This document shows, piece by piece, positions 32,412 through 51,529 of a stretch of 64,000 bases of DNA (position 1 is the stretch's first letter; each line of letters begins with the position of its first letter). A program made the position numbers and the translations under genes. Below the pieces are notes generated by a model that ran no database searches, was not told the DNA's origin, and saw nothing but the letters and a program-made list of their open reading frames with translations. Source of the DNA: an uncultured Planktomarina sp. (GTDB taxonomy: Bacteria > Pseudomonadota > Alphaproteobacteria > Rhodobacterales > Rhodobacteraceae); assembly GCA_905182425.1 (NCBI GenBank), contig CAJJBP010000013.1, positions 1 to 64,000 of the forward strand. The letters are read 5' to 3'.

Positions 32412-33182
32412 TTAAACCCAAAAGTCATAAGTTAATTTAGCCAAACCAATTGTAGACAGGCTAATCAGCAAGCTAAGGCAAAATGGGCGATAAAACTGCT
32501 CCATTTTGGGGCGGAATAAGGTTTTTCCTAAAATGACTCCAAGTATTGTGGGTGCTGCTAAAATCAGGCCCCGAGATCCACTTGTGGCGTTCATTATTCC
32601 AAAAAAGTGGAAGCTAATCAGAGACGGGACCGAGTTAATAAATAGAAATACTACCAGTGAGGCCCGCATTTCACGGGCTGGAGCTTGCCTTGCAAGAACA
32701 TACAAAGCTACCACCATTCCACCGACACTGGCTAGTCCTGAAGCAAATCCAGCAAAAAACCCAGATCCATAAAGACCCCCATTGGTCACCAGAAACGCTA
32801 TTCGCACCTGTATGAGGGTTATGGCTGAAAGACATAAAATTAGTGTAAGGGCAATTAGTTTGGAGATTTCTATTGGCACGCTTGTGATAAGTGCGAGGCC
32901 AAAAGGTAAGCCAATTGTAGAGCCCACCACTAACCTAAACACGACTGCCTTGTTTGCATCATGCCACCCGGTACGGAGCATTAAGGTGGAAGCTGCTATT
33001 TCCAAGCAAAAGCAAATAGGAATTAACTGAATTGGTGAGATAAGAAAAGTAGCTGAACTCATGATCACTGCAGATAAGGCGAACCCGGTAAAGCCGCGAA
33101 CTATGCCTGCAACTAGGCAGATCAAGCCAAGCAAGAACAACTCGCTATGCGTCAGTGTAGCGAACTCCAAAAGAAAGTGCAT
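32412..33182 (-). CDS. tauE: TauE/SafE-family sulfite or anion exporter
   Basis: A 256-aa inner-membrane protein with about eight hydrophobic segments and the TauE/SafE pattern: GIVRGFTGFALSAVIM near 26-41, and GLYGSGFFAGFASGLASVGG near 136-155 in the second repeat. The family exports sulfite or organosulfonates. Its ATG overlaps the stop of the tauR-like regulator (TAATG) and it lies close to tpa, so export of sulfite made during taurine degradation is the natural reading. The name is assigned by context. Confidence 0.75.
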   Translation of the reverse strand: MHFLLEFATLTHSELFLLGLICLVAGIVRGFTGFALSAVIMSSATFLISPIQLIPICFCLEIAASTLMLRTGWHDANKAVVFRLVVGSTIGLPFGLALITSVPIEISKLIALTLILCLSAITLIQVRIAFLVTNGGLYGSGFFAGFASGLASVGGMVVALYVLARQAPAREMRASLVVFLFINSVPSLISFHFFGIMNATSGSRGLILAAPTILGVILGKTLFRPKMEQFYRPFCLSLLISLSTIGLAKLTYDFWV

Positions 33183-34636
33183 TAAAGCTTCATTTCCTGA
33201 GCAATTAAGGCTACGCCCTCAGCTATTTTATGGGTTGAGATAGAGCTATAAGCTAAGCGATAAAATGAATTTGACGCCTCCTCAGTTGTAAAAAACGGCA
33301 TCCCAGGCTCAATCAAAACGCCTTTGTCACGAAGGCGCTCAGCCACCTGTCCCGTATCCACACTGTCGCTTGCACGCATCCAAAAAGAGCTTCCACCGAA
33401 TGCACCCTGCCCCGCCACGGTCAGTCCGTTTGCACTTAATGCCGTCTCCATAGCTTTTCGACGTTCATGGAAAACATGACCCATTTTCCGTATTAGTGCA
33501 TCGTAGTGCCCAAGGGATAAAAAATACGAAGCAGTGCGTTGAATATGCCCCGGTGGATGTCGTAAAACGGTAGATCGAAGCGCACGCGCCTCACGAATAA
33601 AGTGCTTTGAGCCGACCAAATACCCCAAACGCAGGCCGGGGAATAAGGATTTTGAAAAGCTACCAACGTAAATTACCCTACCCTCCCGATCGAGCGATTT
33701 CAGTGCTGGTGATGGAGCTTTGAGGAAGGACATCTCAAATTCATAATCATCTTCAACGATCAAAAAGTCTTGCTCTGACGCTTTTCTTAATAGCTCCTTG
33801 CGACGATCAATTGGCATGGTCGTTGCAGTTGGGCATTGGTGGGACGGAGTTGTAAACACCACATCCACATCGTCTGGTAAAGCATCGGGTGGAAGTCCAC
33901 CGGAATCCACCTCGACTGACGCCACCTGACACCGTGACTGTGTAAGAATATCACGCAAGGACGGGTAACAAGGGTTTTCAAGAACGGCAGTTCTGCGTTG
34001 GTTAAGTAAAACATTTGCTGAAAGCCAAAGAGCGTTTTGGGCGCCCATAGTCACTAAAACTTCATTGGGTTCGGCCGTTATCCCGCGTCGGGGTAACGTG
34101 TGACGTAGGATGAATTCAATTAACTTTGGATCATCACGGTCAAAATAATCTGAAGTCAGAGAGTCATAGTCTTTGGACCCAAGTGCCTGCAATGCGCAGA
34201 GTCGCCAATTTGAGCGATCAAAAAGCGTCTCATCAGCTTGTCCATAAATGAATGGGTATTTGTATTTGCCCCAATCTTGGGGTTTGGTCAGTGATACTCC
34301 ACCAGAAAACTTCTGGCCAATGGCACGATTCCAATCCACTTTATCTTCGCGCGGCGTGATAGCAAATTTTGGTTGCTGTGGTGCGTTTTTACTAATGTAG
34401 TAGCCACTGCGGCCTAAGCTGGTCAGGTAGTCATCAGCCAGTAGCTCTGTATAGGCTAAAGTTACGGTGATCCGGCTGACCGATAAATGCTTGGCCAGCT
34501 TGCGGCTGGAAGGCATCTTTTCACCGGGCCGAAACCGCCCGCTTAGGATGGCTTCTGCCACTAGCTGTTGGATCTGCTTTTGGAGCGTACCTTCTGAATC
34601 TTGGGGTAGAAAAAATGTCTCTTCTGAAATTGCCAT
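33182..34636 (-). CDS. tauR: MocR-type GntR regulator, probable TauR
   Basis: A 484-aa MocR-type protein with an N-terminal GntR winged helix (about 15-80, with PSSRKLAKHLSVSRITVT) fused to an inactive-looking aminotransferase class I domain (about 115-480). The PLP lysine is kept in GSFSKSLFPGLR. TauR of this class activates taurine genes in Rhodobacter relatives. Here it lies just after tpa and overlaps the exporter gene, so the assignment is by context plus architecture. The upstream region carries TGGACT repeats discussed separately. The ribosome site is weak. Confidence 0.8.
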   Translation of the reverse strand: MAISEETFFLPQDSEGTLQKQIQQLVAEAILSGRFRPGEKMPSSRKLAKHLSVSRITVTLAYTELLADDYLTSLGRSGYYISKNAPQQPKFAITPREDKVDWNRAIGQKFSGGVSLTKPQDWGKYKYPFIYGQADETLFDRSNWRLCALQALGSKDYDSLTSDYFDRDDPKLIEFILRHTLPRRGITAEPNEVLVTMGAQNALWLSANVLLNQRRTAVLENPCYPSLRDILTQSRCQVASVEVDSGGLPPDALPDDVDVVFTTPSHQCPTATTMPIDRRKELLRKASEQDFLIVEDDYEFEMSFLKAPSPALKSLDREGRVIYVGSFSKSLFPGLRLGYLVGSKHFIREARALRSTVLRHPPGHIQRTASYFLSLGHYDALIRKMGHVFHERRKAMETALSANGLTVAGQGAFGGSSFWMRASDSVDTGQVAERLRDKGVLIEPGMPFFTTEEASNSFYRLAYSSISTHKIAEGVALIAQEMKL

Positions 34637-34839: not shown

Positions 34840-36228
34840 CTAGCCAAAGACGCGGGTGAGCGCTTGGTCGATCGATTCTGTAATCAGATCAATGTCCTCT
34901 GATGTACATATAAGTGCAGGTGAGAGGCACAGAGTATTATTGAGGCCTGGAACCGAACGGTTGGTGGCGCCAATTATGACGCCCTGCGCCATGCAATCTT
35001 TCACTACGGCCATCACTTTACTTTCCTCCGCAGGCTCACGGGTTTCACGGTTTACGACCAGCTCTGCGCCACAAAACAGGCCCTTGCCTCGGACTTGTCC
35101 GATGCACATGTGCCTTTCTGCCAACGCATTCAGGTTGCCCATTAGCTGCTCGCCGCGGGCAATGCAGTTTTCCAGAAGGTGTTCATCTTCGATGATCCGC
35201 ATATTTTCCAATGCCGCAGCTGGGCCCGCCGTGCAGCCACCAAATGTGGAGATATCGCGGAAGTAACCCATTGGGTCTGTCGTATCTTTAAAGAGATTAA
35301 ACACTTCTTCGGTAGTGACGGTTAAGGAGATAGCTGCATAGCCAGACGCCACGCCCTTTGCCATTGTTACGATGTCGGGTTTGACATCGTAATGCTGATA
35401 GCCAAACCAGGTGCCGGTGCGGCCAAGGCCACAGACGACTTCGTCTATCATCAACAATACATCGTATTTCTTGCAGATTTCCTGAACTCGCTGCCAATAG
35501 CCCTCTGGTGGCACAATCACGCCGCCACCGGCTGTGATTGGCTCAAGGATCAAGCCGCCTACGGTGTCAGCGCCTTCACGTAGTATTACATCCTCAATCG
35601 CATTGGCAGCTCGAAGGCCGTAGGTTTCGCCTTGGCCCAAATTGTCTTGCGCAGCTTCTCGGTATTCCAAGCAATGTGGAACTGAGATGAAGCCCTCAGG
35701 AAAGGGGCCGTATTGAGCATTGCGCTCATGTTGACCACCCGCGGCGAGCGTCGCGATAGTTGTACCGTGGTAGTCGCGCTCTCGGAACAAGATTTTGTTT
35801 TTCTTACCACCATATTTTTTATGGGCAATCTGGCGGATCATTTTGAAGCCTTTTTCATTGGCTTCGGATCCTGAGTTGGAGAAGTAAACACGGCTCATGC
35901 CAGGCATTTTGTCAATCAAGCGTTTTGAAAAATTCGCAGCAGGAATCGAACCTGCCGCACCTGCGAAAAAATGCATTTTAACGAGCTGGTCGCGTACCGC
36001 ATCTGCCATGCTTTCGCGGCCATAGCCAACATTTACAGTCCAAACGCCACCGGATACAGCATCTATATGCTCTTTGCCAGCCTGGTTCCAAACTCGCATA
36101 CCCTTGCCTTCAACAATAATATTAGGATCCACTGTCTCAAATGGTTTGTGAGGAATAAGGTGATGCCAAACATGTGCTTTGTCATTTGCGACAACTTCAC
36201 TCAAGTCATTTGGTAGATTGCCGTCCAT
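34840..36228 (-). CDS. tpa: taurine-pyruvate aminotransferase
   Basis: A 462-aa class III PLP aminotransferase moving the amino group of taurine to pyruvate, giving sulfoacetaldehyde and alanine. Diagnostic are the N-terminal VWHHLIPHKPFE, SNSGSEANEKGFKM (cofactor phosphate), IDEVVCGLGRTG with the cofactor aspartate and the PLP lysine in MAKGVASGYA. These match the Tpa of Rhodobacterales. The start is the ATG with GGAG nine bases upstream; 42 more open codons upstream look like untranslated DNA. Its product is used by Xsc, encoded 12 kb away in this window. A UUCG terminator follows. Confidence 0.92.
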   Translation of the reverse strand: MDGNLPNDLSEVVANDKAHVWHHLIPHKPFETVDPNIIVEGKGMRVWNQAGKEHIDAVSGGVWTVNVGYGRESMADAVRDQLVKMHFFAGAAGSIPAANFSKRLIDKMPGMSRVYFSNSGSEANEKGFKMIRQIAHKKYGGKKNKILFRERDYHGTTIATLAAGGQHERNAQYGPFPEGFISVPHCLEYREAAQDNLGQGETYGLRAANAIEDVILREGADTVGGLILEPITAGGGVIVPPEGYWQRVQEICKKYDVLLMIDEVVCGLGRTGTWFGYQHYDVKPDIVTMAKGVASGYAAISLTVTTEEVFNLFKDTTDPMGYFRDISTFGGCTAGPAAALENMRIIEDEHLLENCIARGEQLMGNLNALAERHMCIGQVRGKGLFCGAELVVNRETREPAEESKVMAVVKDCMAQGVIIGATNRSVPGLNNTLCLSPALICTSEDIDLITESIDQALTRVFG

Positions 36229-36650
36229 GGAACAAACTCCTTCATCTGGCTGTGGCTGATCAGATTCGTAAAATACTATGCTTCTACTATAAGAATGCAG
36301 AATTTCAATTTTTAAAATAGGGCCAGTTGAATTATCTATATAAGGCCAAATCACGTAAAAGCTTGCTGCGTCGTTTCGCTATTTGCAGTAACTCTGCCTT
36401 ATAGTTCAAGTTTAAAACAATATGATGCCACATTATTATTTAAGCAAACATAAAGGGTTTTGTTTTTAAAGATTAAAACCAAAAAAGTTGAAAATACATA
36501 TCCAGCCACTAAAGCGTTGATATTGTGACTTAAAGTTTTCAGTTTAGCTTGTCTCAAATACACTTTTTTTGGAAATTTACTGGTTATTTTTTATGGTTCG
36601 TTTTGTTGTTTAAGGTTGTGGATACAGTGCATGCAAAAATGTGTAAATTT
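36229..36650 (-). other. intergenic region upstream of tpa, AT-rich
   Basis: About 420 bases without a gene. The part next to tpa must hold its promoter, but I cannot name convincing -35 and -10 boxes or TGGACT repeats here. From about 36380 the DNA becomes very AT-rich, which marks the start of the block with unusual composition that extends to about 43.0 kb. Confidence 0.5.
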
Positions 36651-36652
36651 GA

Positions 36653-37048
36653 TCCACAATTGATTTTATCAAAGCTGACCCATTAACGGCATTTGAAGCT
36701 ACACCTCAAATAACTGCACTTGGAGGCGATGACTAAGTCGCTGTTGACTTTACTGCCGCTGCTGATCCTGTTGGTGCTGAAATTAGTAACTGCCAATATA
36801 GCCTTGACGGGGGCTGGATTTGGTTAGCTTTCAACCCAGCTATTACCGGCGGTCCAGCCGTAATCAGCGGCCTAACCAATGGAGTTGAATACTCAATTGA
36901 ATTACGCCCAGTTAACTACGTTGGCCCTGGAGCTATTTCACAATCAGCAAAAGTCACCCCAATCGCTATGCCAAATGCACCGACAAACTTAAGCGCAACC
37001 ACAAACACCTTTTATGTTCCTAAGCTTAGGGTTGTAAGAGATGTTTAA
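36653..37048 (+). pseudogene. remnant of a fibronectin type III repeat protein
   Basis: Reading the frame that ends at the stop 37046-37048 gives about 130 codons interrupted by one TAA at 36734-36736 and lacking a start. The part after the stop has the pattern of a bacterial fibronectin type III repeat: VAVDFTAAADP, then YSLDGG, VISGLTNGVEYSIELRPVN (the GLTNGVEY core) and VGPGAISQS, with the linker PNAPTNLSA typical of the start of the next repeat. Such repeats occur in secreted or surface proteins. No signal, start codon or neighbouring piece was found, so this is a fragment left from a larger gene. It lies at the edge of the AT-rich block. Confidence 0.75.
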
Positions 37049-37101
37049 CTGTTTATGTTTGAAAAAATACCCATGCTGGCGAAAACAAATTAGGACCCGT
37101 T

Positions 37102-38073
37102 ATGAGCCGTGATGTCGATCCCTTTTTTCAACCTATTTCCGCAATGGAACTTGCTCGTTTTGCCGGAGTGCCGACTTTCATGCGGCTTCCTCATATGACC
37201 CCAGATCACCCTCGCTTTGACGATATAAATATAGGTTTATTGGGCGTGCCTTGGGATGGGGGTACAACAAACAGACCGGGCGCGCGACACGGACCGCGCC
37301 AAATGCGTGATCTTTCTACCATGATCCGGGCAATGAACCCGGTTACCAACATTTCACCCTTTGCCAGCGTTAATTGTGCCGACCTGGGTGATGTGCCACC
37401 AAATCCAGTAGATATTCAAGATAGCCTCAATCGTGTGACAGACTTTATTTCAATCATGAAGAAAAAAAATATTGTGCCAATGACAGCAGGTGGAGATCAT
37501 TTGGTTACACTCCCTATTCTACGGGCACTCGCAATTGACGGACCGCTGGGTCTGATTCAATTTGACAGTCATACAGATTTATTTGACAGCTACTTTGGCG
37601 GTCATAAATTTACCCATGGCACTCCATTTCGCCGAGCAATAGAAGAAGGTTTGGTAGATCCAAAACGCTTTGTTCAGGTCGGAATTCGTGGTACCGCATA
37701 TAATCTAGATGACATCGAGTGGGGCATGGACCAGGGTGTCAGAATCATCCGCATTGAGGAGTTATTTGAACGAGGTGTGCCTGACGTTATGGCCGAAGTT
37801 CGCGAGATTGTTGGAACTCTACCAACGTATTGTACCTATGATATTGACTTTGTTGACCCAACCTTCGCATCCGGAACTGGAACACCGGAAATTGGTGGAC
37901 CAAACAGTTTTCAAGCCCAACAGGTTGTACGCGAATTAGCGGGCGTAAACCTGGTAGGTGCCGACTTAGTCGAAGTTTCTCCGCCACTAGATTCTGCTGG
38001 TGGCACTGCATGGTTAGGGGTATCTCTAATTTTCGAATTAATGTGCATTTTGTCGCAATCTATTGAAAAATAG
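37102..38073 (+). CDS. ureohydrolase (agmatinase / guanidino-acid hydrolase family)
   Basis: A 323-aa enzyme of the arginase superfamily, hydrolysing a guanidino compound to an amine and urea. All dinuclear metal ligands are present: H133 (GGDH), D155, H157 and D159 (DSHTD), D247 and D249 (YDIDFVDP). GTGTPEIGG (258-266) and DLVEVSPPLD are also conserved. The N-terminal RFAGVPTFMRLP and the general length recall guanidinobutyrase and guanidinopropionase rather than agmatinase or arginase, but substrate cannot be read off. A polyamine-type ABC importer follows, and tpa and xsc lie on either side of the block. A guanidino compound is therefore the likely import. Confidence 0.85.
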   Translation: MSRDVDPFFQPISAMELARFAGVPTFMRLPHMTPDHPRFDDINIGLLGVPWDGGTTNRPGARHGPRQMRDLSTMIRAMNPVTNISPFASVNCADLGDVPPNPVDIQDSLNRVTDFISIMKKKNIVPMTAGGDHLVTLPILRALAIDGPLGLIQFDSHTDLFDSYFGGHKFTHGTPFRRAIEEGLVDPKRFVQVGIRGTAYNLDDIEWGMDQGVRIIRIEELFERGVPDVMAEVREIVGTLPTYCTYDIDFVDPTFASGTGTPEIGGPNSFQAQQVVRELAGVNLVGADLVEVSPPLDSAGGTAWLGVSLIFELMCILSQSIEK

Positions 38074-38384
38074 ATGAATTTTTAAAAATATACTAAGATT
38101 AAATTTTATGACAGAAGTACTGGCTAAGCTTTTTCATTGTCCCTGACAACGGTAACACATGCCAAGCTTACAGCTGTAATTGATTCTACAATGCAGTTAT
38201 AAAAAATCATACTGAGCTTTGTGAACGACTATTAATCGCCTATTTGCTTTGTTGTTAAAAAATAAACACTTTCCAGCCCAACCGTTAGATAGCAAAGAGT
38301 ATAAAAATAGTAAGTTTAACTATTTTAGTTGTTGTTCAAAGCATTGTGTGGTGACATCGCTTTATATGAAACTAGGAGGGAACT
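38074..38384 (+). other. AT-rich intergenic region before the importer genes
   Basis: 311 bases with no gene seen. It must hold the promoter of the binding-protein gene, but no clear promoter pair or palindromic operator stood out. A good AGGAGGGA ribosome site ends the region. Confidence 0.4.
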
Positions 38385-39554
38385 ATGACCGACGTTAAAA
38401 AACCCACTCATAAGACTGCAGAGGCGGTTAAGAAATTTAACCGCCGCACACTTTTAGCGAGCGGTGCGGCCTTGGCTGCATTTACACCAGTCGCACCAAT
38501 GTTTGTGAGAAACGCATTTGCCGCAACAAGTGGTGAAGTAAACGTCCTGATGTGGGGCGAGTATTTGCCTGACTCAGTGATTGCTGATTTCAAAGCAAAA
38601 ACCGGTATTGTAGTTAATCACACAAAAATTGGTGATAACGGAGAGATCATTTCAAAAATGAAAGCTGGCGGCGGTGCCGGCTACGATCTCGCAAGTCCAA
38701 CAAATATGAGAGCCCTTCAATGGGAAAACCTTGGCGTGCTTCAGCCATTTGACATGAACAAAGTAACCAATATTGGAAATGTTAATCCCGGCATGGTCGC
38801 CGTTGGAGAGCGTGATTGGAACTTTGGCAATAAGGGATCACACTGGCTGCCACAGCTTTGGGGTACAGAATCAATCTCGTGGCGAACAGACAAATGGACC
38901 CCTGACGGGTTGCCAAGTTTTGGCGATATATGGGAGCCAAATCCAGGTATAAACGGTGCGTTTATGATGGGTCGAACATACTCAATGATGACTGGTTGTG
39001 GTATTTGGATGCATCATGAGGGTAAAATGGACTTCTGGTCTTCTTACAAAGACGAAGAGACTATGAGAAAAAACTGGGAGATAATTACTGCTTATTGTAT
39101 CTCTAAAAAGTCCAACTTAGTAAAATTTTGGTCGGGTGCAGATCCACAAAAGCAAGGCTTCACTTCAGATGGTGTTGTCGTGGGCCAAACATGGGACGGA
39201 CCAATTGTATCTATGATGAAATCAGGCGAGCCTGTTGCATACCAAACTACCAAGGAAGGTGCGCTTGCTTGGGTTGACGGAATAACAATGTCGGCTAAAG
39301 CAGAAAACAGAGACGAAGCTTACGAACTTATTAACTATAGCTTCACGCCAGAAGTTGGTGGTCTAACGATCAACGAGATTGGATATAATTCAGCTGTTAT
39401 TGGTGCTTCGGATCATTATACTGCTGAGACAAAGGCTATTTCGCAGGCAGTATATCCTGGGGATACCGCGTCTAAGTTGAACCCATGGCCTCCTGAGCCG
39501 CCCTGGTTTGCAGATGCGCGTGCTGAATATGCAAACAAATTTGAAACTGCCTAA
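38385..39554 (+). CDS. PotD/PotF-like ABC substrate-binding protein with Tat signal
   Basis: A 389-aa binding protein. The N-terminus carries a twin-arginine signal, NRRTLLASGAAL with R20 and R21, and likely cleavage after AFA near residue 46, so it is exported folded. The mature part begins EVNVLMWGEYLPDSVI, the usual start of spermidine/putrescine-type binding proteins, and includes GDNGEIISKMKAGGGAGYD near 82-100. It is the first gene of a four-gene importer operon and is followed by a terminator that would make it more abundant than the other components. Ligand unknown; a cationic amine or guanidine is plausible. Confidence 0.85.
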   Translation: MTDVKKPTHKTAEAVKKFNRRTLLASGAALAAFTPVAPMFVRNAFAATSGEVNVLMWGEYLPDSVIADFKAKTGIVVNHTKIGDNGEIISKMKAGGGAGYDLASPTNMRALQWENLGVLQPFDMNKVTNIGNVNPGMVAVGERDWNFGNKGSHWLPQLWGTESISWRTDKWTPDGLPSFGDIWEPNPGINGAFMMGRTYSMMTGCGIWMHHEGKMDFWSSYKDEETMRKNWEIITAYCISKKSNLVKFWSGADPQKQGFTSDGVVVGQTWDGPIVSMMKSGEPVAYQTTKEGALAWVDGITMSAKAENRDEAYELINYSFTPEVGGLTINEIGYNSAVIGASDHYTAETKAISQAVYPGDTASKLNPWPPEPPWFADARAEYANKFETA

Positions 39555-39576
39555 AAATTTCAATTTGTAAAAATTG

Positions 39577-39612
39577 GAGCGCCTTGAATTTTGTCAGGGC
39601 GCTCTTTTTTTT
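39577..39612 (+). terminator. rho-independent terminator after the binding-protein gene
   Basis: GAGCGCC (39577-39583) and GGCGCTC (39598-39604) form a 7-bp GC-rich stem followed by eight T residues (39605-39612). It sits 23 bases past the binding-protein stop and before the ATPase gene in the same direction, so it probably acts as a partial terminator within the operon. Confidence 0.85.
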
Positions 39613-39663
39613 CCATTAGTTTTGGTTTATAGCGAGGCAGATTGTTTTTTAAGGAATTGACCT

Positions 39664-40776
39664 ATGAGTGCTGATGTAGAACTGCAAAACGTTTCTGTTT
39701 CTTTTGGAAACTTTTATGCGGCAAAAAATGTTAGTGTCAAAATAGAAAAAGGAGAGTTCTTTAGCTTCCTTGGACCCTCTGGCTGTGGAAAGACCACTTT
39801 GCTACGCGCAATATCTGGATTCTCCGAGCCATCTGATGGAAAAATTCTAATCGGAAACCAGGATATGGCTGGCATTGGACCAAACAACAGGCCAACATCT
39901 CTAATATTTCAAAACCTTGCTCTGTTCCCACTAATGTCTGTAGCAGATAATATAGCATTTTCTTTGGAGGTCAGGGGAACTGGGAAGGTCCAAAGAAGAA
40001 AACGAGCTGACGAACTTTTAGAATTAGTCGCTTTAAGTGGCCAGGGTGATAAAAAAGTTCATGAACTATCTGGTGGACAGCGACAGCGAGTGGCAATTGC
40101 ACGTGCGCTGGCAATCGAGCCAGAGGTTCTGCTTTTAGACGAACCGTTGTCAGCATTAGATTTAAAATTACGCCAGAAAATGAGAACAGAACTGAGAGAG
40201 ATCCAGAAGAGAGTTGGTATCACCTTCATTTATATTACTCATGACCAAGGTGAAGCATTAACGATGTCAGACCGAATTGCAGTCATGAACCAAGGCGAGT
40301 TGGAACAAATTGGCTCGTGTCACAACGTATACGAATCGCCGCGCACTCCATTTGTAGCAACATTTGTTGGTGAGAATAACTCGTTCTATGGAACCGTTAG
40401 TGCAGTTGATGGTGATATGGTGAATGTATCGGCTGATGGTAATAATTTTTTGGCGAAGGCTGGTGATTTGGGTGAGGGTAAAAAGTATACCTTTAAAAAG
40501 GATGACAAGGTAATAATGTTTGTAAGGCCTGAATCTATTTTCCTTAAAGACCAAAATAATCAGGCGGACAATATTTTTACCGCGGGCTTCAAAGCAATCG
40601 AATTCGAAGGAAACTTAAAAAATATTTATATGAGTATCGATGGGAAACAAAATGTTCGCTGTAGTGTTTCCAATGCCGTTGATACTACGGACCTACCAAA
40701 TTCAAAAAAAGTCGAATTAAAATTTTCCTCACGAGATGCAGTTGTCCTTCCCGTGGGACCGTTAGCGGTTGATTAG
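39664..40776 (+). CDS. PotA-like ABC transporter ATPase
   Basis: A 370-aa ATPase of the polyamine/opine/amine uptake family. Walker A GPSGCGKTT is at 37-45, the LSGGQRQR signature near 135-142, Walker B VLLLDEPLSALD near 155-166 and the H-loop THDQGEAL thereafter. A TOBE domain follows from about 285. AAGGAA precedes the ATG. It energises the permeases encoded immediately downstream. Confidence 0.9.
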   Translation: MSADVELQNVSVSFGNFYAAKNVSVKIEKGEFFSFLGPSGCGKTTLLRAISGFSEPSDGKILIGNQDMAGIGPNNRPTSLIFQNLALFPLMSVADNIAFSLEVRGTGKVQRRKRADELLELVALSGQGDKKVHELSGGQRQRVAIARALAIEPEVLLLDEPLSALDLKLRQKMRTELREIQKRVGITFIYITHDQGEALTMSDRIAVMNQGELEQIGSCHNVYESPRTPFVATFVGENNSFYGTVSAVDGDMVNVSADGNNFLAKAGDLGEGKKYTFKKDDKVIMFVRPESIFLKDQNNQADNIFTAGFKAIEFEGNLKNIYMSIDGKQNVRCSVSNAVDTTDLPNSKKVELKFSSRDAVVLPVGPLAVD

Positions 40777-40787
40777 AGAGAACAAGA

Positions 40788-41699
40788 ATGAAGTATTTCT
40801 TTAATAAAAACGGTCCTCTGATATCAACCTATTTAATAATTGCTATTGGGTTCTGGTTAGTTTTTCTTATTATTATTCCACAATTATATATGGTTGACCT
40901 TTCATTCCGTCCTAACATACCGCCACTATTAAGGGGCGGTCCAGACGACGTATATACGCTAACTCATTACAAACATTTCCTTTTTGGTTCTGAGACAAGT
41001 GGAGAAAGTTATAATTATGTAGATGTGGGCGTTTTCAGAGACACACTTTTAATCGCTGTTCTAATTACGCTTATTAATCTTTGCTTTTGTTATCCCATCG
41101 CCTTTTATATTGCGAAAGTTGCCTCCCCCAATACTGCAAGATTATTGATTGTTTCTTTAATTATTCCTTTCTGGATTAATGAGCTTCTCCGCTCTTTTGC
41201 ACTCCGCATTTTATTTGCTGGTGAGGGATTTATAAATAATGTCCTTCTCAAATTGGGTCTAATAGACAGCGGCATAAATTTTATAGCTATGGATGTCGCT
41301 CTCTATACTGGCCTAAACTATGCCTATATTCTTTTAATGATTTTTCCTCTTTATAATGCCATGGACACTCTGGACAGAAATCAGCTTGAAGCAGCAGAAG
41401 ATTTGGGTTCATCAATGTTAAAAACTCACTTTCGGATCGTTATCCCACATGCCAAGGCTGGGATTGCGTCTGGGTGCACCATGGTTTTCATGCTAACCGC
41501 AGGTGCTTTAGCAACACCAGTAGTCCTTAGTAGCCCTAATACATTTTGGTTTACTCAATTAATTTATCAGTGGTTTAATATGAACGACAATTGGCCAAGA
41601 GGGGCCGCCTATTCAGTTGTCTTGCTGTCTGTATCGGTTGTTTTTGTACTTCTAATGATGAAAATCTTTAAAGTGAAAATTGGTGAGATTGTACGATGA
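40788..41699 (+). CDS. PotB-like ABC transporter permease
   Basis: A 303-aa permease with six membrane segments and the EAA loop EAAEDLGSSMLKTHFRIVIP (about 203-222). Its class is the spermidine/putrescine permease PotB. The periplasmic loop after the first segment (about 40-80) is long and polar. The codons are strikingly AT-rich compared with flanking genes. It overlaps the next permease gene by four bases (ATGA). Confidence 0.9.
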   Translation: MKYFFNKNGPLISTYLIIAIGFWLVFLIIIPQLYMVDLSFRPNIPPLLRGGPDDVYTLTHYKHFLFGSETSGESYNYVDVGVFRDTLLIAVLITLINLCFCYPIAFYIAKVASPNTARLLIVSLIIPFWINELLRSFALRILFAGEGFINNVLLKLGLIDSGINFIAMDVALYTGLNYAYILLMIFPLYNAMDTLDRNQLEAAEDLGSSMLKTHFRIVIPHAKAGIASGCTMVFMLTAGALATPVVLSSPNTFWFTQLIYQWFNMNDNWPRGAAYSVVLLSVSVVFVLLMMKIFKVKIGEIVR

Positions 41700-42910
41700 A
41701 ATCTCAACAAGCTCTAAATATATTATTAGGCATTTATATTTTTATATTTTTTACCTACCTTTTTGGCCCTCTTGTTATAATGAGCATCACAGCTTTTAAC
41801 TCAGCCGAATTTCCATCCGTAACACCTTGGGAGTGCTTCAGTCTTCGATGGTTCAACGAAGGCAAAATTGCCTATGATGGACAACACCTTGCAGGGTTAG
41901 CTACGGATTGGAGGCTGCACGAAGGCTTAATTACGTCACTAAAAATTGGACTGGGAGTTGTTCTTCTTGCAGTTCCCATAGGGTTGTCAGCGGCTCTAGT
42001 CTTGACACAAGTTCACAGTCGGTTGCGTACAGCATTTTATTCCATATCTATTATGCCAGTATTATTTCCAGGCGTCATTATTGGAATTTCAACGGTAGTC
42101 CTTTGGGACCGGATTGCCACTATGGGCGGTGGCGGCCTTGCCACACAACTAGGAAGAAATGGTGTTTTCTTAACTATATTGGCTCAGACCTGTTTCATCT
42201 CTACATACTGTTTTTTAATTTTTGTCGCCAGATTACAGAGGTTCGATCAAACACAGGAAGAGGCAGCTTTAGATCTTGGAGCAAACCAGACCCAAGTTTT
42301 TTTCAAAATATTAATACCGTATATGATGCCCGCGATTGCTTCGTCCTGCGTGATAGCATTCCTGGCGTCCTTTGAGAATTACAACACTACGGTCTTCAGT
42401 ATTTTATCTGATCAAACTCTTACAACTGTTATTGCGTCCAAAGTTCGCCTTGGAATAAGCCCTGCAATCAGCTCTCTTGCACTGGTAATCATCTTAATAA
42501 CCCTAACAGTAACGATAATATATGAAGTCCTCAAAAGGCGAGAGGACAAAAAGAAAAAGGAACTTGAAGCTGAAGCCTTGTTTGCACAAACTCTAGATTC
42601 GCGCCTGAAAAAAGTGAAAACAAATGGCCTCAAAATCCCAAAATCTATATTTGTTATATTATTTTTCGTCGTAGTATGCATTTTTGGATTTAATAAAATG
42701 GTAGAGAAAGGGATGTATGGATCCACCTGTATTGCTGCCACAGAAAAAGAAAAGAAGTCCAATTTTGCTGATCAGCTAAAGCTATTACAAAATAACGCTG
42801 AAATAGCTAATCAGCGATCGTCAGAAAATGGTGACGTAGGCGAGAAAAAAGAATTTGATAGTATTTTTGGAGATCCAAATTTATTCAAAGACTTTGGTGG
42901 GTTTGATTAA
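41696..42910 (+). CDS. PotC-like ABC permease with an unusual C-terminal extension
   Basis: A 404-aa protein. Residues 1-280 form a normal PotC-type permease with six membrane segments and an EAA loop (EEAALDLGANQTQVFFKILIP, about 188-208). PotC proteins normally end near here. Instead a lysine- and glutamate-rich linker (281-312) leads to a seventh hydrophobic segment (about 315-332). After that comes a polar tail rich in K, E, N and D that ends in phenylalanine and aspartate (FKDFGGFD). The extension reads as one open frame with no stop or shift, so it is probably genuine. Its role is unknown; tethering the ATPase or a second membrane protein is a guess. Confidence 0.85.
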   Translation: MKSQQALNILLGIYIFIFFTYLFGPLVIMSITAFNSAEFPSVTPWECFSLRWFNEGKIAYDGQHLAGLATDWRLHEGLITSLKIGLGVVLLAVPIGLSAALVLTQVHSRLRTAFYSISIMPVLFPGVIIGISTVVLWDRIATMGGGGLATQLGRNGVFLTILAQTCFISTYCFLIFVARLQRFDQTQEEAALDLGANQTQVFFKILIPYMMPAIASSCVIAFLASFENYNTTVFSILSDQTLTTVIASKVRLGISPAISSLALVIILITLTVTIIYEVLKRREDKKKKELEAEALFAQTLDSRLKKVKTNGLKIPKSIFVILFFVVVCIFGFNKMVEKGMYGSTCIAATEKEKKSNFADQLKLLQNNAEIANQRSSENGDVGEKKEFDSIFGDPNLFKDFGGFD

Positions 42911-43052
42911 AAGATACAGGACCAAGACTATCCCTAAGCACTTTGTTCAAATTCTTCAGCTGCTAGCAGTTCTAACAGAGATTAACTATCAGGCTGTTTT
43001 CTGTTTTCCAGAGCAAGATGAGGTGCGCGCACGGCCAACAAGTTTACAGTAA
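42911..43052 (+). other. intergenic region after the importer operon
   Basis: No recognisable gene. The AT-rich composition of the importer block fades here and GC content rises towards the remnants that follow, suggesting the right boundary of the insertion lies near 42.9-43.0 kb. Confidence 0.4.
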
Positions 43053-43217
43053 GCTTTGACACCGATCTTTCACTTTGCGAATTATGAGTTCAAGAAATCG
43101 GATGGGGTGATCGTTACACATCTGAATGGGCATGCCGTTTCACCAGGAGAAGAGATTGCGTTGAATGACGGTCGCTTGGGGCTCACCGACAAAGGCACCC
43201 CTTCTTTGAACCGGTAA
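43053..43217 (+). pseudogene. coding fragment of unrecognised origin
   Basis: Fifty-four codons without a start, ending at the TAA 43215-43217, that read like real protein: FHFANYEFKKSDGVIVTH, GHAVSPGEEIALNDGRLG, LTDKGTP. The base composition matches the core genome and not the AT-rich block. It is followed by other broken pieces, the last of which is a TauC/SsuC-type permease remnant. I do not recognise the family. Confidence 0.45.
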
Positions 43218-43300
43218 GTGGGTTCCACATGGCACGGTTGTATTTGCAAGCGCCAGAGATGGCCTCAGACCATTTTTTGACGCTGAACAAAGAGGTTTAT

Positions 43301-43673
43301 CGTAATTTCATACTCCTACAGCATACATGGGCTTCACTGTCGCGGGGGGGTCGACGGTTTTCTGTTTGGGTGCCTTGCTGGGCATTATTCCCGTGGGCTT
43401 CCGAATTGATCTTATGGCCGGTTTGATCCGATTGTTGAGTTTATGAGACCTGTGCCATCCTTGACCCTGATTCCCTTGATGATCATCTGGTTTGGAATTG
43501 GTAAAACCTCCAAGATTATCACACTGTTCCTAGTGGCGCTTTTGATCATGGTCGCGGCCAAGTTTTAGCTGACTGATACTGTGACCGCTGGGATAATTCT
43601 GATTGGCTTTTTGATTAATATCTGCATTCGCCAACTCGAAAGTTGGTTGGTGTCTTGGAAGGGCAAACCTTAA
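43301..43673 (+). pseudogene. remnant of a TauC/SsuC-type ABC permease
   Basis: Three pieces in different frames follow each other as they would in a TauC/SsuC permease. LLQHTWASLSR lies at about 43316-43348 and GALLGIIPVGF at about 43370-43402. DPIVEFMRPVPSLTLIP with IIWFGIGKTSKII follows from 43425. After VALLIMVAA the conserved EAA region is missing, a stop (43566-43568) follows, and the C-terminal GIILIGFLINICIRQLESWLVSWKGK remains to the end at 43673. Frameshifts, a deletion and a stop make it non-functional. In Rhodobacterales tauABC commonly lies near tpa and xsc, so this is most likely a dead tauC. Confidence 0.75.
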
Positions 43674-43718: not shown

Positions 43719-46019
43719 CTATTCGATTTCAGCACCAGATAGCATGGCAGTGATCCAGCGCTTTGTGTCCGGTGTTTTTGCCAAGCGCAGAAAGGCTGCG
43801 CGTTCGCGGTCAAACATATCTTGCTCAGTGACCTCAAGGGGGGCATCTGAGGCTGTGTTGACAACGATTGTCGCGATTTCCATCGCAGTGGTTTTATTGT
43901 GGGGCTTGAACCAGCCCTTGGCCAGGCCATCGGCCATGAATACCTCCATTTTGCCAAATACAGCTTTTCCGGGCAGGGTCAATTTTAGTGGTGTGGGCGG
44001 GGTATATCCTGGGGCCATGTCAGCAAGGAGTGCAGTGGCCCGTGTGATTAGCTTATCGCGGTTCATCACAGTTTCATCGTGATCAGGGATGAAATAGCGC
44101 AGTTTTGCAGCCTGTTCGGGGCTCTGACCGGTTTTACCGTAGCCTACTTGCATCCACGTTTCCCAGGCTGCAACTTCAGGATCCTGAGTTGCGGAAAGCC
44201 AGCGTTGGTAGGTAGTTTTCACACCACCACCACCTGGCACGACCCCCACACCACTTTCGACTAATCCAAGAACTGAATTTGCATGCGTAATCAATTTATC
44301 ACAATGTAGTAACACCTCAAATCCGCCGCCGAGTGAAAGGCCGGAAGGTGCACCAACCACTGGCACAGGGCAGTATTTCAAAGCGACCACGGCTTGCTGG
44401 AAGTCATTTAAAAAAGTATCCATTTCGTCCCAAGCTTTGCGTGCAATAAAATCAGCGAAACGGTTAAGGTCAACGCCGGCACTAAAGTGTTGTGCATCAT
44501 TGTGAATAAGGATGCCTGCACCATGATCTTCAGCGGCTTGTTTCACAATTGCCATACTGTCGGCCGTAAGTGCATTGGCTTTGGAGTGAAATTCGACCAG
44601 TCGTAAATTGTTGGGCAGTGCCCAAAGGCTTGCGGCGCGATTGGTGGCAATGGGCGTCATGGTCCTGCGAGTCAAGCTGAACCGTTGCGTCCCTAAAGGC
44701 AAGTCTACCGGTTTCAACATAGGCTTTTCGCTAAAGTTGCGTACATTCAGAACGCCGTTTTCTGAGACGTAGAAGGGACCTATCTCTGCTGATACGGCCA
44801 AAGCCATTGGAATATCACATCCAGCTTGGTGGGCGAGTTCAATCACTATGTCAGCACCAAGCGCGTCTATCATTTCGAACGGCCCACGGATCCAATTAAA
44901 GCCCATTTTCATGGCGTCATCTATATCTTGGGGCGTGGCCGTTACTTCTGGGATTAATGCTGCTGCATAGGACAAAACCCGTCCTAAAAAGTTTCTACAA
45001 AAGCGTGTGTGTGCATCGTTGCCTGCTATCATCAGAGGAAGTGTTTCGCAGCTTTGTTGTTGTGCCAAAGCGGCGGCTTGGGCCATCGCTGGCAATTCTA
45101 TTGAACGGGGTCTCATACTTCCTGAGTTAAGGTCTATGACCTCGCCTGCGCGGTAGAAGCCACCTTTACCAGATTTTAAGCCTGTAAATCCTCCTTGGAT
45201 CATGGTGTTGATTAAATCGTTGGCGGGATTATTAGACTTACCTACAGCGTGAAAAACGTCCTTTTTCGGAAGGATATCGCCTAAAGTTTTTACAACATCT
45301 GACATTAAATCAACACCGATCATGTCATATAGACCAAAGACGCCGGTTTTGGGAATACCCATTGGGCGCCCCATTAGGGCGTCAGCGTCTTCAATACTAA
45401 GACGCTGTTTGAAGGCCTCGTCCATGCCGACTTGAAGTGCAAACACTCCAACACGGTTACCTAGAAACCCGGGGGTATCCTTGCAAGGTACAACGCCTTT
45501 TCCAAGGACTTCATCATTGAAATCTGAGAGTTTTTCCATGACGTCGGATCGGGTTTTCTCACCGCGTACCAGTTCTAAAAGGCGCATGTACCGAACTGGA
45601 TTGAAATAATGTGTGATAGCGAACCGCTCCTGAAAAGCGGTGGGCATTTCTGCCACGAGGAGTTTGATTGGGATGGTTGAAGTATTTGAAGTTACGATAC
45701 AGTTTTTGCTGATGACGTCATCCAACCGCCTATAAAGGTTGCGTTTGACATCCAGCTGTTCGACGATAGCTTCCACAATCCAGTCACATTCGGCCAGTTT
45801 GTCAAAATCGTCCTCGATAGTACCTGTTTTTATCAAATCCACATTGCAGCGTTGGTGCAGTGGAGCGGGTTCAGATTTCTTCAAGCGTTGAAGTGCGTAG
45901 TCTGTTGCCTCAGTATTGAGGTCTAGCAGTAAAACTTTATGGCCTGCGTTGGCGATTTGGCCTGCTATACCGGAGCCCATCGTGCCGGCACCGATAACTG
46001 CAATGCATTTGAATGACAT
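43719..46019 (-). CDS. 3-hydroxyacyl-CoA dehydrogenase / enoyl-CoA hydratase (FadB-like)
   Basis: A 766-aa bifunctional protein of beta-oxidation type. The order is reversed from E. coli FadB: the NAD-binding 3-hydroxyacyl-CoA dehydrogenase part comes first (GAGTMGSGIAG at 10-20, TSNTSTIPI near 108-116, HYFNPVRYMRLLE near 134-146), then a second dehydrogenase C-terminal region (about 310-430). An enoyl-CoA hydratase/isomerase domain follows (about 465-660, with FSAGVDLNRF and LSLGGGFEVLL). Such dehydrogenase-first proteins are common in alphaproteobacteria. It ends the minus-strand group metY-hydrolase-fadB. Confidence 0.88.
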   Translation of the reverse strand: MSFKCIAVIGAGTMGSGIAGQIANAGHKVLLLDLNTEATDYALQRLKKSEPAPLHQRCNVDLIKTGTIEDDFDKLAECDWIVEAIVEQLDVKRNLYRRLDDVISKNCIVTSNTSTIPIKLLVAEMPTAFQERFAITHYFNPVRYMRLLELVRGEKTRSDVMEKLSDFNDEVLGKGVVPCKDTPGFLGNRVGVFALQVGMDEAFKQRLSIEDADALMGRPMGIPKTGVFGLYDMIGVDLMSDVVKTLGDILPKKDVFHAVGKSNNPANDLINTMIQGGFTGLKSGKGGFYRAGEVIDLNSGSMRPRSIELPAMAQAAALAQQQSCETLPLMIAGNDAHTRFCRNFLGRVLSYAAALIPEVTATPQDIDDAMKMGFNWIRGPFEMIDALGADIVIELAHQAGCDIPMALAVSAEIGPFYVSENGVLNVRNFSEKPMLKPVDLPLGTQRFSLTRRTMTPIATNRAASLWALPNNLRLVEFHSKANALTADSMAIVKQAAEDHGAGILIHNDAQHFSAGVDLNRFADFIARKAWDEMDTFLNDFQQAVVALKYCPVPVVGAPSGLSLGGGFEVLLHCDKLITHANSVLGLVESGVGVVPGGGGVKTTYQRWLSATQDPEVAAWETWMQVGYGKTGQSPEQAAKLRYFIPDHDETVMNRDKLITRATALLADMAPGYTPPTPLKLTLPGKAVFGKMEVFMADGLAKGWFKPHNKTTAMEIATIVVNTASDAPLEVTEQDMFDRERAAFLRLAKTPDTKRWITAMLSGAEIE

Positions 46020-46038
46020 TTGAAAACTTTCGATCTTT

Positions 46039-46824
46039 TTACAAAAATGCTCTGAGCGCTTTGTTCACGTCAAAGTGTTGTTCTGTGATTGACATATGCC
46101 CAGAATGTGGAATCTCAACCAGAATACCCCCTAACGCGTCGTACAAAGCTAATCCAGTTTTACGGGGCGTCATGCGGTCTTGCCCACATACAATGGTCAG
46201 AGTGTGGCACTTGGTTTGAGCTGCGGCAGCCGGGCCATTTATATACAAGTTGCAAGCTTTGAGATCTGAATGTAGGGCGCCCACGGCATTACCCGCCATA
46301 AGCCGGCTACCGTAGAGCATGTGCGATGTTCCAGGTAGGGTATGTTCATGAACATGACCTGTTGGGCCGTGCCCCCAGTCCATCATTGCCGCAATCGCGG
46401 CACTTTCTTTAGTCGCCGCCAGATCGACCAGTGTATCAGCTACTGGAATAGATAATGCCGTACTTATAAAGGCGGCTTTTGAAACCGAGTCTGGATAACG
46501 AGAAGCCAGCTCAAGTTCGATCAATCCACCCATTGAATGCCCAACAAGAGTCGCAGTAGAAATATCAGCGGCCTTCATAAATGCGATATACCAATCGGCC
46601 ATTTCCTCAATTGTTTGTAAAGGATCACCTTGAGATAGGCCGTGACCGGGCATGTCAGGGGTAACACATTGCCATCCGCGATTGGCAAAGAAGCGGTGCT
46701 GCAACATAAACCCAAGATGAGATTGGCCTGAACCATGGATGAATAGGACAACATCGCCGCTTGGATCAAAAGCTCGTCCACCAGTTGAGGCAAAAGTTTC
46801 CTCGCAATTGACTTTTAATTTCAC
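46039..46824 (-). CDS. alpha/beta hydrolase
   Basis: A 261-aa alpha/beta hydrolase. HGSG (30-33) supplies the oxyanion hole, the nucleophile S97 lies in GHSMGG, and the late SGHM carries the likely histidine. It belongs to the broad haloperoxidase/esterase family; substrate unknown. Its ATG overlaps the metY stop by 4 bases, so the two are translated together. A role in hydrolysing a sulfur-containing ester is conceivable but not shown. Confidence 0.75.
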   Translation of the reverse strand: MKLKVNCEETFASTGGRAFDPSGDVVLFIHGSGQSHLGFMLQHRFFANRGWQCVTPDMPGHGLSQGDPLQTIEEMADWYIAFMKAADISTATLVGHSMGGLIELELASRYPDSVSKAAFISTALSIPVADTLVDLAATKESAAIAAMMDWGHGPTGHVHEHTLPGTSHMLYGSRLMAGNAVGALHSDLKACNLYINGPAAAAQTKCHTLTIVCGQDRMTPRKTGLALYDALGGILVEIPHSGHMSITEQHFDVNKALRAFL

Positions 46825-48128
46825 GACTTTGCTCCCGCCGCGGCAACTTTACCTGCGATGCGCAAGGCTTGTTTAAAGTCGGCTGTGAGGTCTTTTATAT
46901 CTTCCAAACCAACTGAAATTCGGATTAGGTCATCTGTAAGCCCGGCCGCGGTCATAGCGTCTGCTGTAAGATGTGAGTGCGTGGTTGAGCCAGGATGAAT
47001 AACCAAAGTTTTTGCGTCACCTACATTAGCCAAATGACTAGCTAATTTGACATTTTCGATAAATGCTCGACCTGCATTGCGTCCGCCTTTGATGCCACAG
47101 GCTATAATTGAGCCCTGACCTTTGGGCATCAAGCGCATGGCTGTGGCATGGTCTGGATGATCTGGCAAACTTGGGTGTTTTACCCAATCAATTTGATCCT
47201 GAGTGTTCAAGAACTCTAACATTGCTGTGGTGTTAGAAATATGTTTCTCCATCCGCAGGCTTAAAGTTTCAAGACCCTGCAAAATGTAGAATGCATTTTG
47301 TGGGGAAAGACATGGACCGACATTCATCATGCCCTCTGTTCGAATCCTAACTGACAATGCAGCAGGGCCAAACTCTTCCCACAAAATAGCTCCTTGGTAG
47401 CCGAAATGTGGAGTTGTGAGAGTTGGGAACTTGTCGTTTTGTCCCCAGTTGAAGTTCCCACCGTCAATCACTGCTCCACCGAGTGCAACACCATGTCCAC
47501 CCATCCATTTTGTCAGTGAGTGGATCACAACGTTCGCTCCCAACTCGATTGGTTTGATCATCCAAGGTGTATTAAATGTGGCGTCAATTACTAAAGGAAT
47601 ACCTGCATTATTGGTAACCTCAGCTACTGCTGGCACATCCATGATGTCCATGCCTGGATTACCAATGATTTCGCCAAAAACCATTTTGGTATTTTCTTGG
47701 ATAGCCGCTGCGATAGCAGATGTGTCATTTGGCGCAACAAAAGTTGTGGTTATCCCGTAACGCTTAAGGGTGTGTTCAAAAAGATTGATGTTGGCTCCAT
47801 ACATCTGTGAAGAGCTTACGATGTGATCTCCCGTGGAACACAACGCCAGAACTGTAACGAAGAGAGCGGACATGCCAGACGCTGTTGCTACGGCTGCAAC
47901 GCCTCTATCCAGGGCTGCTAGACGCTGTTCAAGTACGGCTACGGTTGGATTTGTCAGCCGAGAGTACACGTGTCCACCGACTTCCATGTTGAATAAGGCA
48001 GCCGCGTGTTCGGTACTGTCGAAAACATAGCTTGTTGTTTGATGAATTGGGACGGCACGGCTGCCAAACCGAGCATCAGGACTTTGGCCTGCATGCAGGG
48101 TAAGCGTATCGAACTTGTAGTCAGCCAT
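46821..48128 (-). CDS. metY: O-acetylhomoserine sulfhydrylase
   Basis: A 435-aa PLP enzyme of the Cys/Met metabolism family making homocysteine from O-acetylhomoserine and sulfide. The PLP lysine is K207 in SLTKWMGG, with YSRLTNPTV (55-63) and ATASGMSAL (81-89) for cofactor binding; length and HYGQ-like N-terminus LHAGQSPD fit MetY rather than MetB or MetZ. It could reassimilate sulfur near a sulfite-producing pathway, but the methionine pathway is its usual setting. It is divergent from xsc. Confidence 0.92.
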   Translation of the reverse strand: MADYKFDTLTLHAGQSPDARFGSRAVPIHQTTSYVFDSTEHAAALFNMEVGGHVYSRLTNPTVAVLEQRLAALDRGVAAVATASGMSALFVTVLALCSTGDHIVSSSQMYGANINLFEHTLKRYGITTTFVAPNDTSAIAAAIQENTKMVFGEIIGNPGMDIMDVPAVAEVTNNAGIPLVIDATFNTPWMIKPIELGANVVIHSLTKWMGGHGVALGGAVIDGGNFNWGQNDKFPTLTTPHFGYQGAILWEEFGPAALSVRIRTEGMMNVGPCLSPQNAFYILQGLETLSLRMEKHISNTTAMLEFLNTQDQIDWVKHPSLPDHPDHATAMRLMPKGQGSIIACGIKGGRNAGRAFIENVKLASHLANVGDAKTLVIHPGSTTHSHLTADAMTAAGLTDDLIRISVGLEDIKDLTADFKQALRIAGKVAAAGAKS

Positions 48129-51504: not shown

Positions 51505-51529
51505 CCCAATAATTCATAGGGGGTCCTTC

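Follow-up and report, generated by a model that had tools for sequence, protein, structure and literature searches.

A Pot-type importer and a guanidino-acid hydrolase at the tauABC site of a Planktomarina taurine locus

The locus

The DNA considered here (the window) is the first 64,000 nucleotides of contig CAJJBP010000013.1 of an uncultured Planktomarina sp. (assembly GCA_905182425.1). Between tpa and xsc, two genes of taurine dissimilation, it carries a block (37102-42910) made up of a guanidino-acid hydrolase and a complete Pot-type ATP-binding cassette (ABC) importer. A preliminary description of the sequence had listed such a block, and all five of its frames are indeed intact. The block stands where sister genomes carry tauABC, the genes of the taurine importer, and a ruined tauC lies beside it. 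FadJ-like, alpha/beta-hydrolase and O-acetylhomoserine sulfhydrylase genes (43719-48128) separate the block from xsc. The genes and features are:

32412..33182, (-): TauE/SafE-family permease, candidate sulfite exporter (PF01925, 71.4 bits, cut-off 32.6)
33182..34636, (-): MocR-type regulator, candidate TauR, with GntR and class I/II aminotransferase domains (NF052282, 345 bits, cut-off 320); it adjoins tpa in relatives
34840..36354, (-): tpa, candidate taurine:pyruvate aminotransferase (PF00202; 70-71% identity to the gene preceding xsc in Kiloniella)
37102..38073, (+): guanidino-acid hydrolase, predicted 3-guanidinopropionase (GpuA) type (PF00491; best solved relative GpuA, 3nip)
38385..39554, (+): substrate-binding protein of the Pot-type importer, twin-arginine signal R20 R21 (PF13416; PotD/PotF fold)
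39664..40776, (+): ATPase of the importer (PF00005; PotA and PhnT2 models under their cut-offs)
40788..41699, (+): permease 1 of the importer (PF00528)
41696..42910, (+): permease 2 of the importer, with a C-terminal extension (PF00528; 404 amino acids, against 295 in Kiloniella L068)
43074..43667, (+): tauC remnant, a pseudogene (tblastn with TauC of sister G045; frames broken)
43719..46019, (-): FadJ-like 3-hydroxyacyl-CoA dehydrogenase, right border of the replaced site
46821..48128, (-): O-acetylhomoserine sulfhydrylase (TIGR01326, 576.1 bits, cut-off 495.1)
48638..50491, (+): xsc, sulfoacetaldehyde acetyltransferase (TIGR03457, 921.7 bits, cut-off 676.4)
50491..51504, (+): pta, phosphate acetyltransferase (TIGR00651, 358.7 bits, cut-off 311.2)
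51476..54340, (+): molybdopterin oxidoreductase, candidate SoeA of sulfite dehydrogenase, named by position (no curated model above cut-off)
55978..56850, (+): DmsC-type membrane anchor, candidate SoeC, named by position (PF04976)

Taurine dissimilation by way of sulfoacetaldehyde is represented in the profile search by Xsc, above its curated cut-off, with Pta alongside. The best NCBIfam model of tpa is PRK07678, with a score under its cut-off; the gene probably starts downstream of its annotated start, to judge by the 462 amino acids of its product in many relatives. TauR is the name that we presume to apply to the MocR-type regulator.

The site normally held by tauABC

The TauABC-Tpa-Xsc route of taurine dissimilation in Rhodobacterales is known from Silicibacter pomeroyi. 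At the thresholds applied, 18 of 20 genomes of the genus have tpa and all 20 have xsc; in 12 of them, the window included, the two genes share a contig, and the intervening site was read in all. It holds tauABC in four (G045, G210, G211, G215), the Pot-type importer in four (G000, which is the window, G198, G199 and G212) and no transporter in the remaining four (G200, G201, G203, G214). In two further genomes (G205, G206) tauABC adjoins tpa, with xsc on a separate contig. TauA is detected in 10 of the 20, among them G204 at a mere 44%. Four genomes with tauABC at exactly this site bear out the initial suggestion that the block takes the place of the taurine transporter.

The dead TauC-type permease of the same description is genuine: tblastn with TauC of G045 matches 43074-43559 at E 1.9e-41, and further pieces follow in other frames to 43667. 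The remnant is also found in G198 and G212; the short gap of G199 gave no tblastn match. Since sisters have tauABC there and tauC is ruined in the window, G198 and G212, the block occupies a former tauABC position. Replacement of TauABC by the Pot-type importer is a well supported genomic fact and, as a replacement of function, reasonably supported. Compared with the TauABC-Tpa-Xsc system as cited in PMC10675870, the locus retains tpa, xsc, pta, candidate soe, MocR and TauE-type genes nearby as well as the tauABC site of its sisters, but differs in its Pot-type transporter, in the added guanidino-acid hydrolase and in having tauC as a pseudogene.

Two side observations belong to this region. 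The gap between tpa and the hydrolase (36355-37101) appears, translated by eye, to contain a fragment of a fibronectin-like surface protein, for which the reference set yields no match. Four sisters (L145:6348-10426, L146, L147, L152) have genes for a sarcosine/dimethylglycine-dehydrogenase-like protein and an MttB-like methyltransferase (325.9 bits, under the cut-off of 525) between tauABC and FadJ, for which use of N-methylated taurine is possible.

Recent exchange of the block

The proportion of synonymous differences (pS) between the window and G199 is 0.07-0.25 in the five block genes and 0.61-0.88 in eight flanking genes; against G198 (whose genes contain runs of N) the corresponding values are 0.11-0.26 and 0.68-0.86. 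Against G212, pS is 0.18-0.24 in the four importer genes, 0.19 in tpa and 0.72-0.83 in seven other flanking genes. (Genes of less than 60% identity, that is, the TauE gene, are excluded from these comparisons.) Blocks located elsewhere (G203, L024, L026) stand at pS 0.46-0.71 from the window's. The low pS of the block relative to its flanks signifies recent interspecies exchange among species that have it at this site, once together with tpa. Ratios of nonsynonymous to synonymous change (dN/dS) of 0.03-0.12 against G199, G198 and G212 show that purifying selection acts on the block genes. All that G212 keeps of the hydrolase is a C-terminal piece (residues 246-316, 86-90% identical), and its importer genes are open, from which it follows that the importer is useful without the hydrolase.

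The block had also been called AT-rich. Its G+C content (41.5%) is indeed below that of the window (46.7%), a level equally low in 23 of 1164 sliding stretches of the same length, block-overlapping ones included; the difference is modest and comes mainly from the ATPase and the permeases, the hydrolase standing at 46.9%. Base composition is weak proof of foreign origin, and the case for transfer rests on pS.

The hydrolase

The hydrolase belongs to the arginase fold family (PF00491, 281.8 bits) with the metal motifs GGDH, DSHTD and DID present. Its closest solved relative is GpuA (3nip, 388.6 bits), followed by GbuA (299.1 bits), and it is 55% identical to GpuA, 44% to GbuA and 40% to SpeB. 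R76 corresponds to R72 of GbuA and R105 of the human guanidino-acid hydrolase AGMAT (GDAH), and Y164 to Y157 of GpuA; GbuA has Met (M161) at the latter position. The Arg is close to the acid group of the substrate, according to the GDAH study (PMC9772407).

Agmatinase models score under their cut-offs (TIGR01230, 165.7 bits against 174.3; PRK02190, 265 against 302), and an equivalent of R76 is missing from two aligned agmatinases and from the SpeB-like protein of the same genome. As regards guanidinobutyrase, Y164 is not Met and the enzyme is nearer to GpuA than to GbuA. Another contig of this genome (C9) has a separate GbuA-like gene (62% to GbuA, Met kept) and a SpeB-like gene (50% to SpeB). 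On residues and paralogues together, we reject agmatinase and guanidinobutyrase. Assignment, as a class, to the guanidino-acid hydrolases of guanidinopropionase type is a well supported prediction, and one into which the more general 'guanidino-acid-type hydrolase' of the preliminary description fits.

The window's enzyme shares with GpuA of Pseudomonas aeruginosa its 55% identity and the retained Tyr157 and substrate-binding Arg positions, but accompanies an ABC importer at a taurine locus; P. aeruginosa GpuA sits in a gpu cluster with a permease. Enzyme handbooks list GpuA as active on taurocyamine too. With GDAH (PMC9772407), the acid-side Arg (R105; R72 in GbuA) is shared, but GDAH is closer to GbuA (60%) than to GpuA (45%), whereas the window's enzyme is of GpuA type with a predicted specificity.

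Elsewhere, the hydrolase family lies within 5 kb of TauB/TauC-type genes at five of 52 further alphaproteobacterial loci (L187, L190, L191, L210 and L237, from three families); the binding protein of L187 is SsuA-like, at 157.1 bits against a cut-off of 163.5. At five loci in 52, a general link between hydrolase and sulfonate importers is a lead and not a rule. The importer is 8.6 kb from the hydrolase at L173, and in G200 the hydrolase is ~5 kb from urease genes.

The importer and its binding pocket

The importer scores far below the curated polyamine-importer equivalogs (PotD 99.9 bits against a cut-off of 582, PotA 335.8 against 482, PotB 148.2 against 348, PotC 93 against 326). It is also outside the TauABC/SsuABC (NitT/TauT) family: its binding protein belongs to PF13416, with PotD as the best NCBIfam model, and within the block region the TauC match is confined to the remnant. 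A model of the binding protein (mean predicted local distance difference test score, pLDDT, 85) has the PotD/PotF fold, with a weaker match to Atu4243, which binds gamma-aminobutyrate. Permease 2 (41696-42910) has a C-terminal extension of ~110 residues, and SAR11, SAR116 and Ruegeria loci encode proteins of comparable length.

Binding proteins from a chosen subset of 35 loci were aligned with PotD. The twin-arginine pair R20 R21 is invariant in all 35. Pocket residues W34, W229 and W255 are kept in 35, Y37 and D257 in 34 and Y293 in 33, and 34 have an acid at E36. In PotD the distal amine of the ligand is bound by D168 and E171; at neither position does any of the 35 have an acid, and the window has Y199 and M202 instead. 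Arginines are kept at R197 (35 of 35) and R109 (33 of 35). Such a pocket suggests a ligand whose two ends differ, one being an amine or guanidinium and the other an acid, and we read the importer as one for short omega-amino acids in place of TauABC.

What the importer shares with PotABCD/PotFGHI is therefore partial: fold, gene set and the aromatics and proximal acids of the binding protein are the same, but the distal acids are replaced, arginines are conserved, scores are far under curated cut-offs, and the importer is surrounded, here as in several lineages, by taurine or omega-amino-acid genes. Polyamine specificity is disfavoured, with the distal acids gone and SAR11 having a second Pot-type system. 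A distant further match is present in 10 of 12 SAR11 genomes searched, and the three of these loci that were read (L241, L242, L243) belong to this second system, with acids at three distal positions and not at two proximal ones. There it adjoins a GlnA-like gene (27-28%) and is a candidate polyamine importer. A further comparison is with the 2-aminoethylphosphonate transporters AepXVW/AepP/AepSTU (PMC8316502): the ligand is in both cases probably a C2 omega-amino acid, and PhnT2 is the top ATPase model, but at 350.5 bits against a cut-off of 457.7, and there are two permeases and not the single 546-position PhnU2 model; the comparison is one of model scores. The PhnU2 model is taken to be related to AepXVW.

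The importer in other lineages

The preliminary description had asked whether the block is linked to tpa or xsc in other genomes, and the importer family does prove to be tied to taurine genes in Kiloniella, in SAR11 and in a sample of the class. A scan of species genomes yielded 78 importer loci, and neighbouring genes were tabulated for 98 (some contigs entered twice: L164 and L030; L165 and L070). In Kiloniella (51% identity) the importer lies between a MocR/Soe arm and tpa-xsc in four long loci (L068, L069, L070, L098); no hydrolase was found in the stretch read around these importer, tpa and xsc genes. SAR11 and SAR116 have close relatives of the binding protein (82-90% identity). Upstream of the SAR11 importer (82%), 25 of 29 loci have xsc and alanine dehydrogenase (Ald), and the contigs of the remaining four end too early; in 24 loci the importer is paired with a ureohydrolase that has both Arg and Tyr and is just 37-39% identical to the window's, the remaining five ending before the gene.

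An even sample of 385 alphaproteobacterial genomes (importer at E 1e-85, hydrolase at E 1e-100) has the importer in 24, xsc in 47 (46 above the curated cut-off) and the hydrolase in 53. Half of the importer genomes (12/24) have xsc, against 35 of 361 others (p 2.5e-6, or 1.0e-5 without the window's own genome); hydrolase and xsc co-occur in 18 (p 4.8e-6) and importer and hydrolase in 10 (p 4.6e-4), all p values ignoring relatedness. In 7 of the 12 genomes having both, no more than 10 kb separates importer and xsc; these seven come from families f1, f34, f37 and f155 (the last being Kiloniella's). Loci were read for 20 of the 23 importer genomes other than the window's own (G252, G286 and G477 are missing, G252 and G477 being placed by coordinates only; the Xsc of L183, flagged Xsc_like by identity, exceeds the TIGR03457 cut-off and is counted as xsc). 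Ten of the 20 have an omega-aminotransferase or Tpa plus MocR within 4 kb of the importer, and five are without taurine markers (L166, L168, L171, L180 and L164, the last bar a GlnA-like gene). On a quick tree of 50 binding proteins, with 11 short-flank loci left unlabelled, xsc linkage requires at least four changes, gains or losses.

Two further kinds of neighbour were seen. A short MetE-like methyltransferase gene (PF01717; nearest solved relative 3rpd) stands beside the importer in 39 of the 78 loci, in several gene orders; none is seen in the window's block. Examples are:

L054:8683-9729, (-): MetE-like methyltransferase
L024:7466-8536, (+): MetE-like methyltransferase; also at L167, L169 and L170

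Perhaps this neighbour, for which no role was found, signals a methylated substrate. At L047:2661-5105 (+), a DAO+GCV_T protein immediately precedes xsc, in a cluster that is present in 13 of the 29 SAR11 loci.

What the block may do

Every substrate named in what follows is one that we infer. The block would be a horizontally spread cassette that supplies the taurine locus with a new front end. Its Pot-type importer would take over from the decayed TauABC, carrying taurine or the wider class of short omega-amino acids in which an amine (or guanidinium) and an acid group (sulfonate, phosphonate or carboxylate) occupy opposite ends; from the guanidino form of the imported compound the hydrolase would free urea. 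We give this proposal, an importer for taurine or omega-amino acids with a hydrolase for their guanidino forms, even chances of being right. At this locus the reaction would most coherently be taurocyamine to taurine, for use by Tpa, Xsc, Pta and Soe, and as the most coherent reading at this place, and not more, taurocyamine is put forward as hydrolase substrate. A fuller and more exacting version can be offered only tentatively, and is on the whole unlikely: the importer would take both taurocyamine and taurine, with the GpuA-type enzyme giving taurine and urea for Tpa, Xsc and Soe as an undescribed entry, and the family would serve for C2 omega-amino acids in general (taurine, 2-aminoethylphosphonate, beta-alanine and their guanidino forms), being shared horizontally by planktonic Rhodobacterales, SAR116 and SAR11.

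The preliminary description had proposed import and hydrolysis of a guanidinosulfonate such as taurocyamine, to feed taurine dissimilation. The site, the hydrolase residues, the tie of the importer to taurine genes and purifying selection speak for it; what it did not foresee is that the link between importer and taurine is independent of the hydrolase in Kiloniella and G212. Because the importers of both lack an intact hydrolase, the more probable role of ours is import of omega-amino acids of the taurine type, with guanidino acids brought into range by the hydrolase.

The main rival to taurocyamine is 3-guanidinopropionate: the cassette would import it for hydrolysis to urea and beta-alanine, and would owe its position to use of beta-alanine by omega-aminotransferases, or to chance. 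The closest solved enzyme is a 3-guanidinopropionase, AptA-type omega-aminotransferases are near the importer in 9 of the 20 class-sample loci (seven of the nine without xsc in the stretch), and hydrolase and importer occur together without tpa or xsc in the available flanks of L024, L025, L026 and L028. Yet in the window, G198, G199 and G212 the block sits at the sisters' tauABC site, between tpa and the xsc arm, and the Kiloniella importer goes with tpa and xsc with no hydrolase in the stretch; we consider this rival unlikely, if less so than those that follow. Chance insertion of an unrelated amine importer cassette into a taurine locus whose tauABC was already decaying would account for the four genus members with an empty site and for blocks at other places in relatives, but it is improbable in view of an importer family that is found less than 10 kb from xsc in seven of twelve class-sample genomes from four families, as well as in SAR11, and of at least four linkage changes on the tree.

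A polyamine/agmatine system (PotABCD with agmatinase), of the kind published for SAR11 potABCD and speB (PMC8437039), would be consistent with the Pot fold, with the PotD, PotF and YdcS models, which match below cut-off, and with GlnA-like genes near the importer in some loci. Acids are nevertheless absent at the distal PotD positions in all 35 sequences, R76 is present where agmatinases and the genome's own SpeB-like protein lack it, and it is the second SAR11 Pot-type system that has three distal acids, though without proximal acids. This reading is very improbable, and the 'simpler alternative' of the preliminary description, guanidinobutyrate or polyamine use, is likewise disfavoured by the pocket residues and by the separate GbuA- and SpeB-like genes. 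Least probable, by a little, is a 2-aminoethylphosphonate importer with the hydrolase a mere passenger: phnW, phnA and phnY (equivalogs above cut-off) adjoin the importer at L097, with xsc 6 kb off, and a PhnW-like gene (58%) and PbfA (above cut-off) are near the hydrolase-importer block at L024, but these two alone among the loci read have phn-type neighbours, and the annotated 33-57 kb stretch of the window has no phn gene.

A number of observations count against the proposed front end for taurine. Four genomes of the genus have tpa and xsc but nothing for transport at the site. G203 (= L028), G200, G201, L024, L025 and L026 carry the block, or just the hydrolase, at other locations. An unlinked block in relatives had been named beforehand as telling against import of guanidinosulfonates; it is found in part (G203/L028, L024, L025, L026). 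Of the five importer-bearing genomes of the genus, G198 alone has TauA, intact and on another contig. Within 5 kb of the hydrolase at the 52 further loci, some of them on short contigs, there is no xsc, MocR or importer of this kind and no strong tpa match, two having a weak aminotransferase match. Drafts of the window's genome, G198 and G199 yielded no urease. Ruegeria and its close relatives contribute 25 importer loci (L072-L096, ~50% identity), and no xsc, tpa or MocR is found in the stretch around any of them; those inspected sit among sugar genes, and L072 has a GlnA-like gene. SAR116 L029-L031 and four Rhodobacteraceae loci likewise have a GlnA-like gene instead of taurine genes. For the R105 form of GDAH, PMC9772407 reports taurocyamine as the best of the substrates tried, yet with Km >50 mM. 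Finally, HTCC1062 reportedly has tauABC and takes up taurine (PMC3090418), so that for this compound the Pot-type importer may be dispensable in SAR11.

Implications

Among the titles and abstract openings listed by full-text searches of a limited library, none describes a Pot-type taurine importer or the use of taurocyamine by bacteria through such a block. A survey of the Roseobacter clade affiliated (RCA) cluster, which by its name includes the Planktomarina-labelled relative L022, found taurine enzymes in almost all members and tauABC in five species only; from the lack of tauABC it was concluded that taurine cycling involves a limited number of species (PMC10675870). Open-ocean bacteria with the block may be able to import taurine, and perhaps taurocyamine, even where the genes sought in surveys are missing, and the block makes that conclusion directly testable. 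If the Pot-type importer carries taurine, the RCA conclusion would need revision, as would marine-omics counts of 'polyamine transporters', since this importer has close relatives in SAR11 and SAR116. Should the hydrolase act on taurocyamine, a compound related to the phosphagens of marine animals would become a source of carbon, nitrogen and sulfur with a known gene set.

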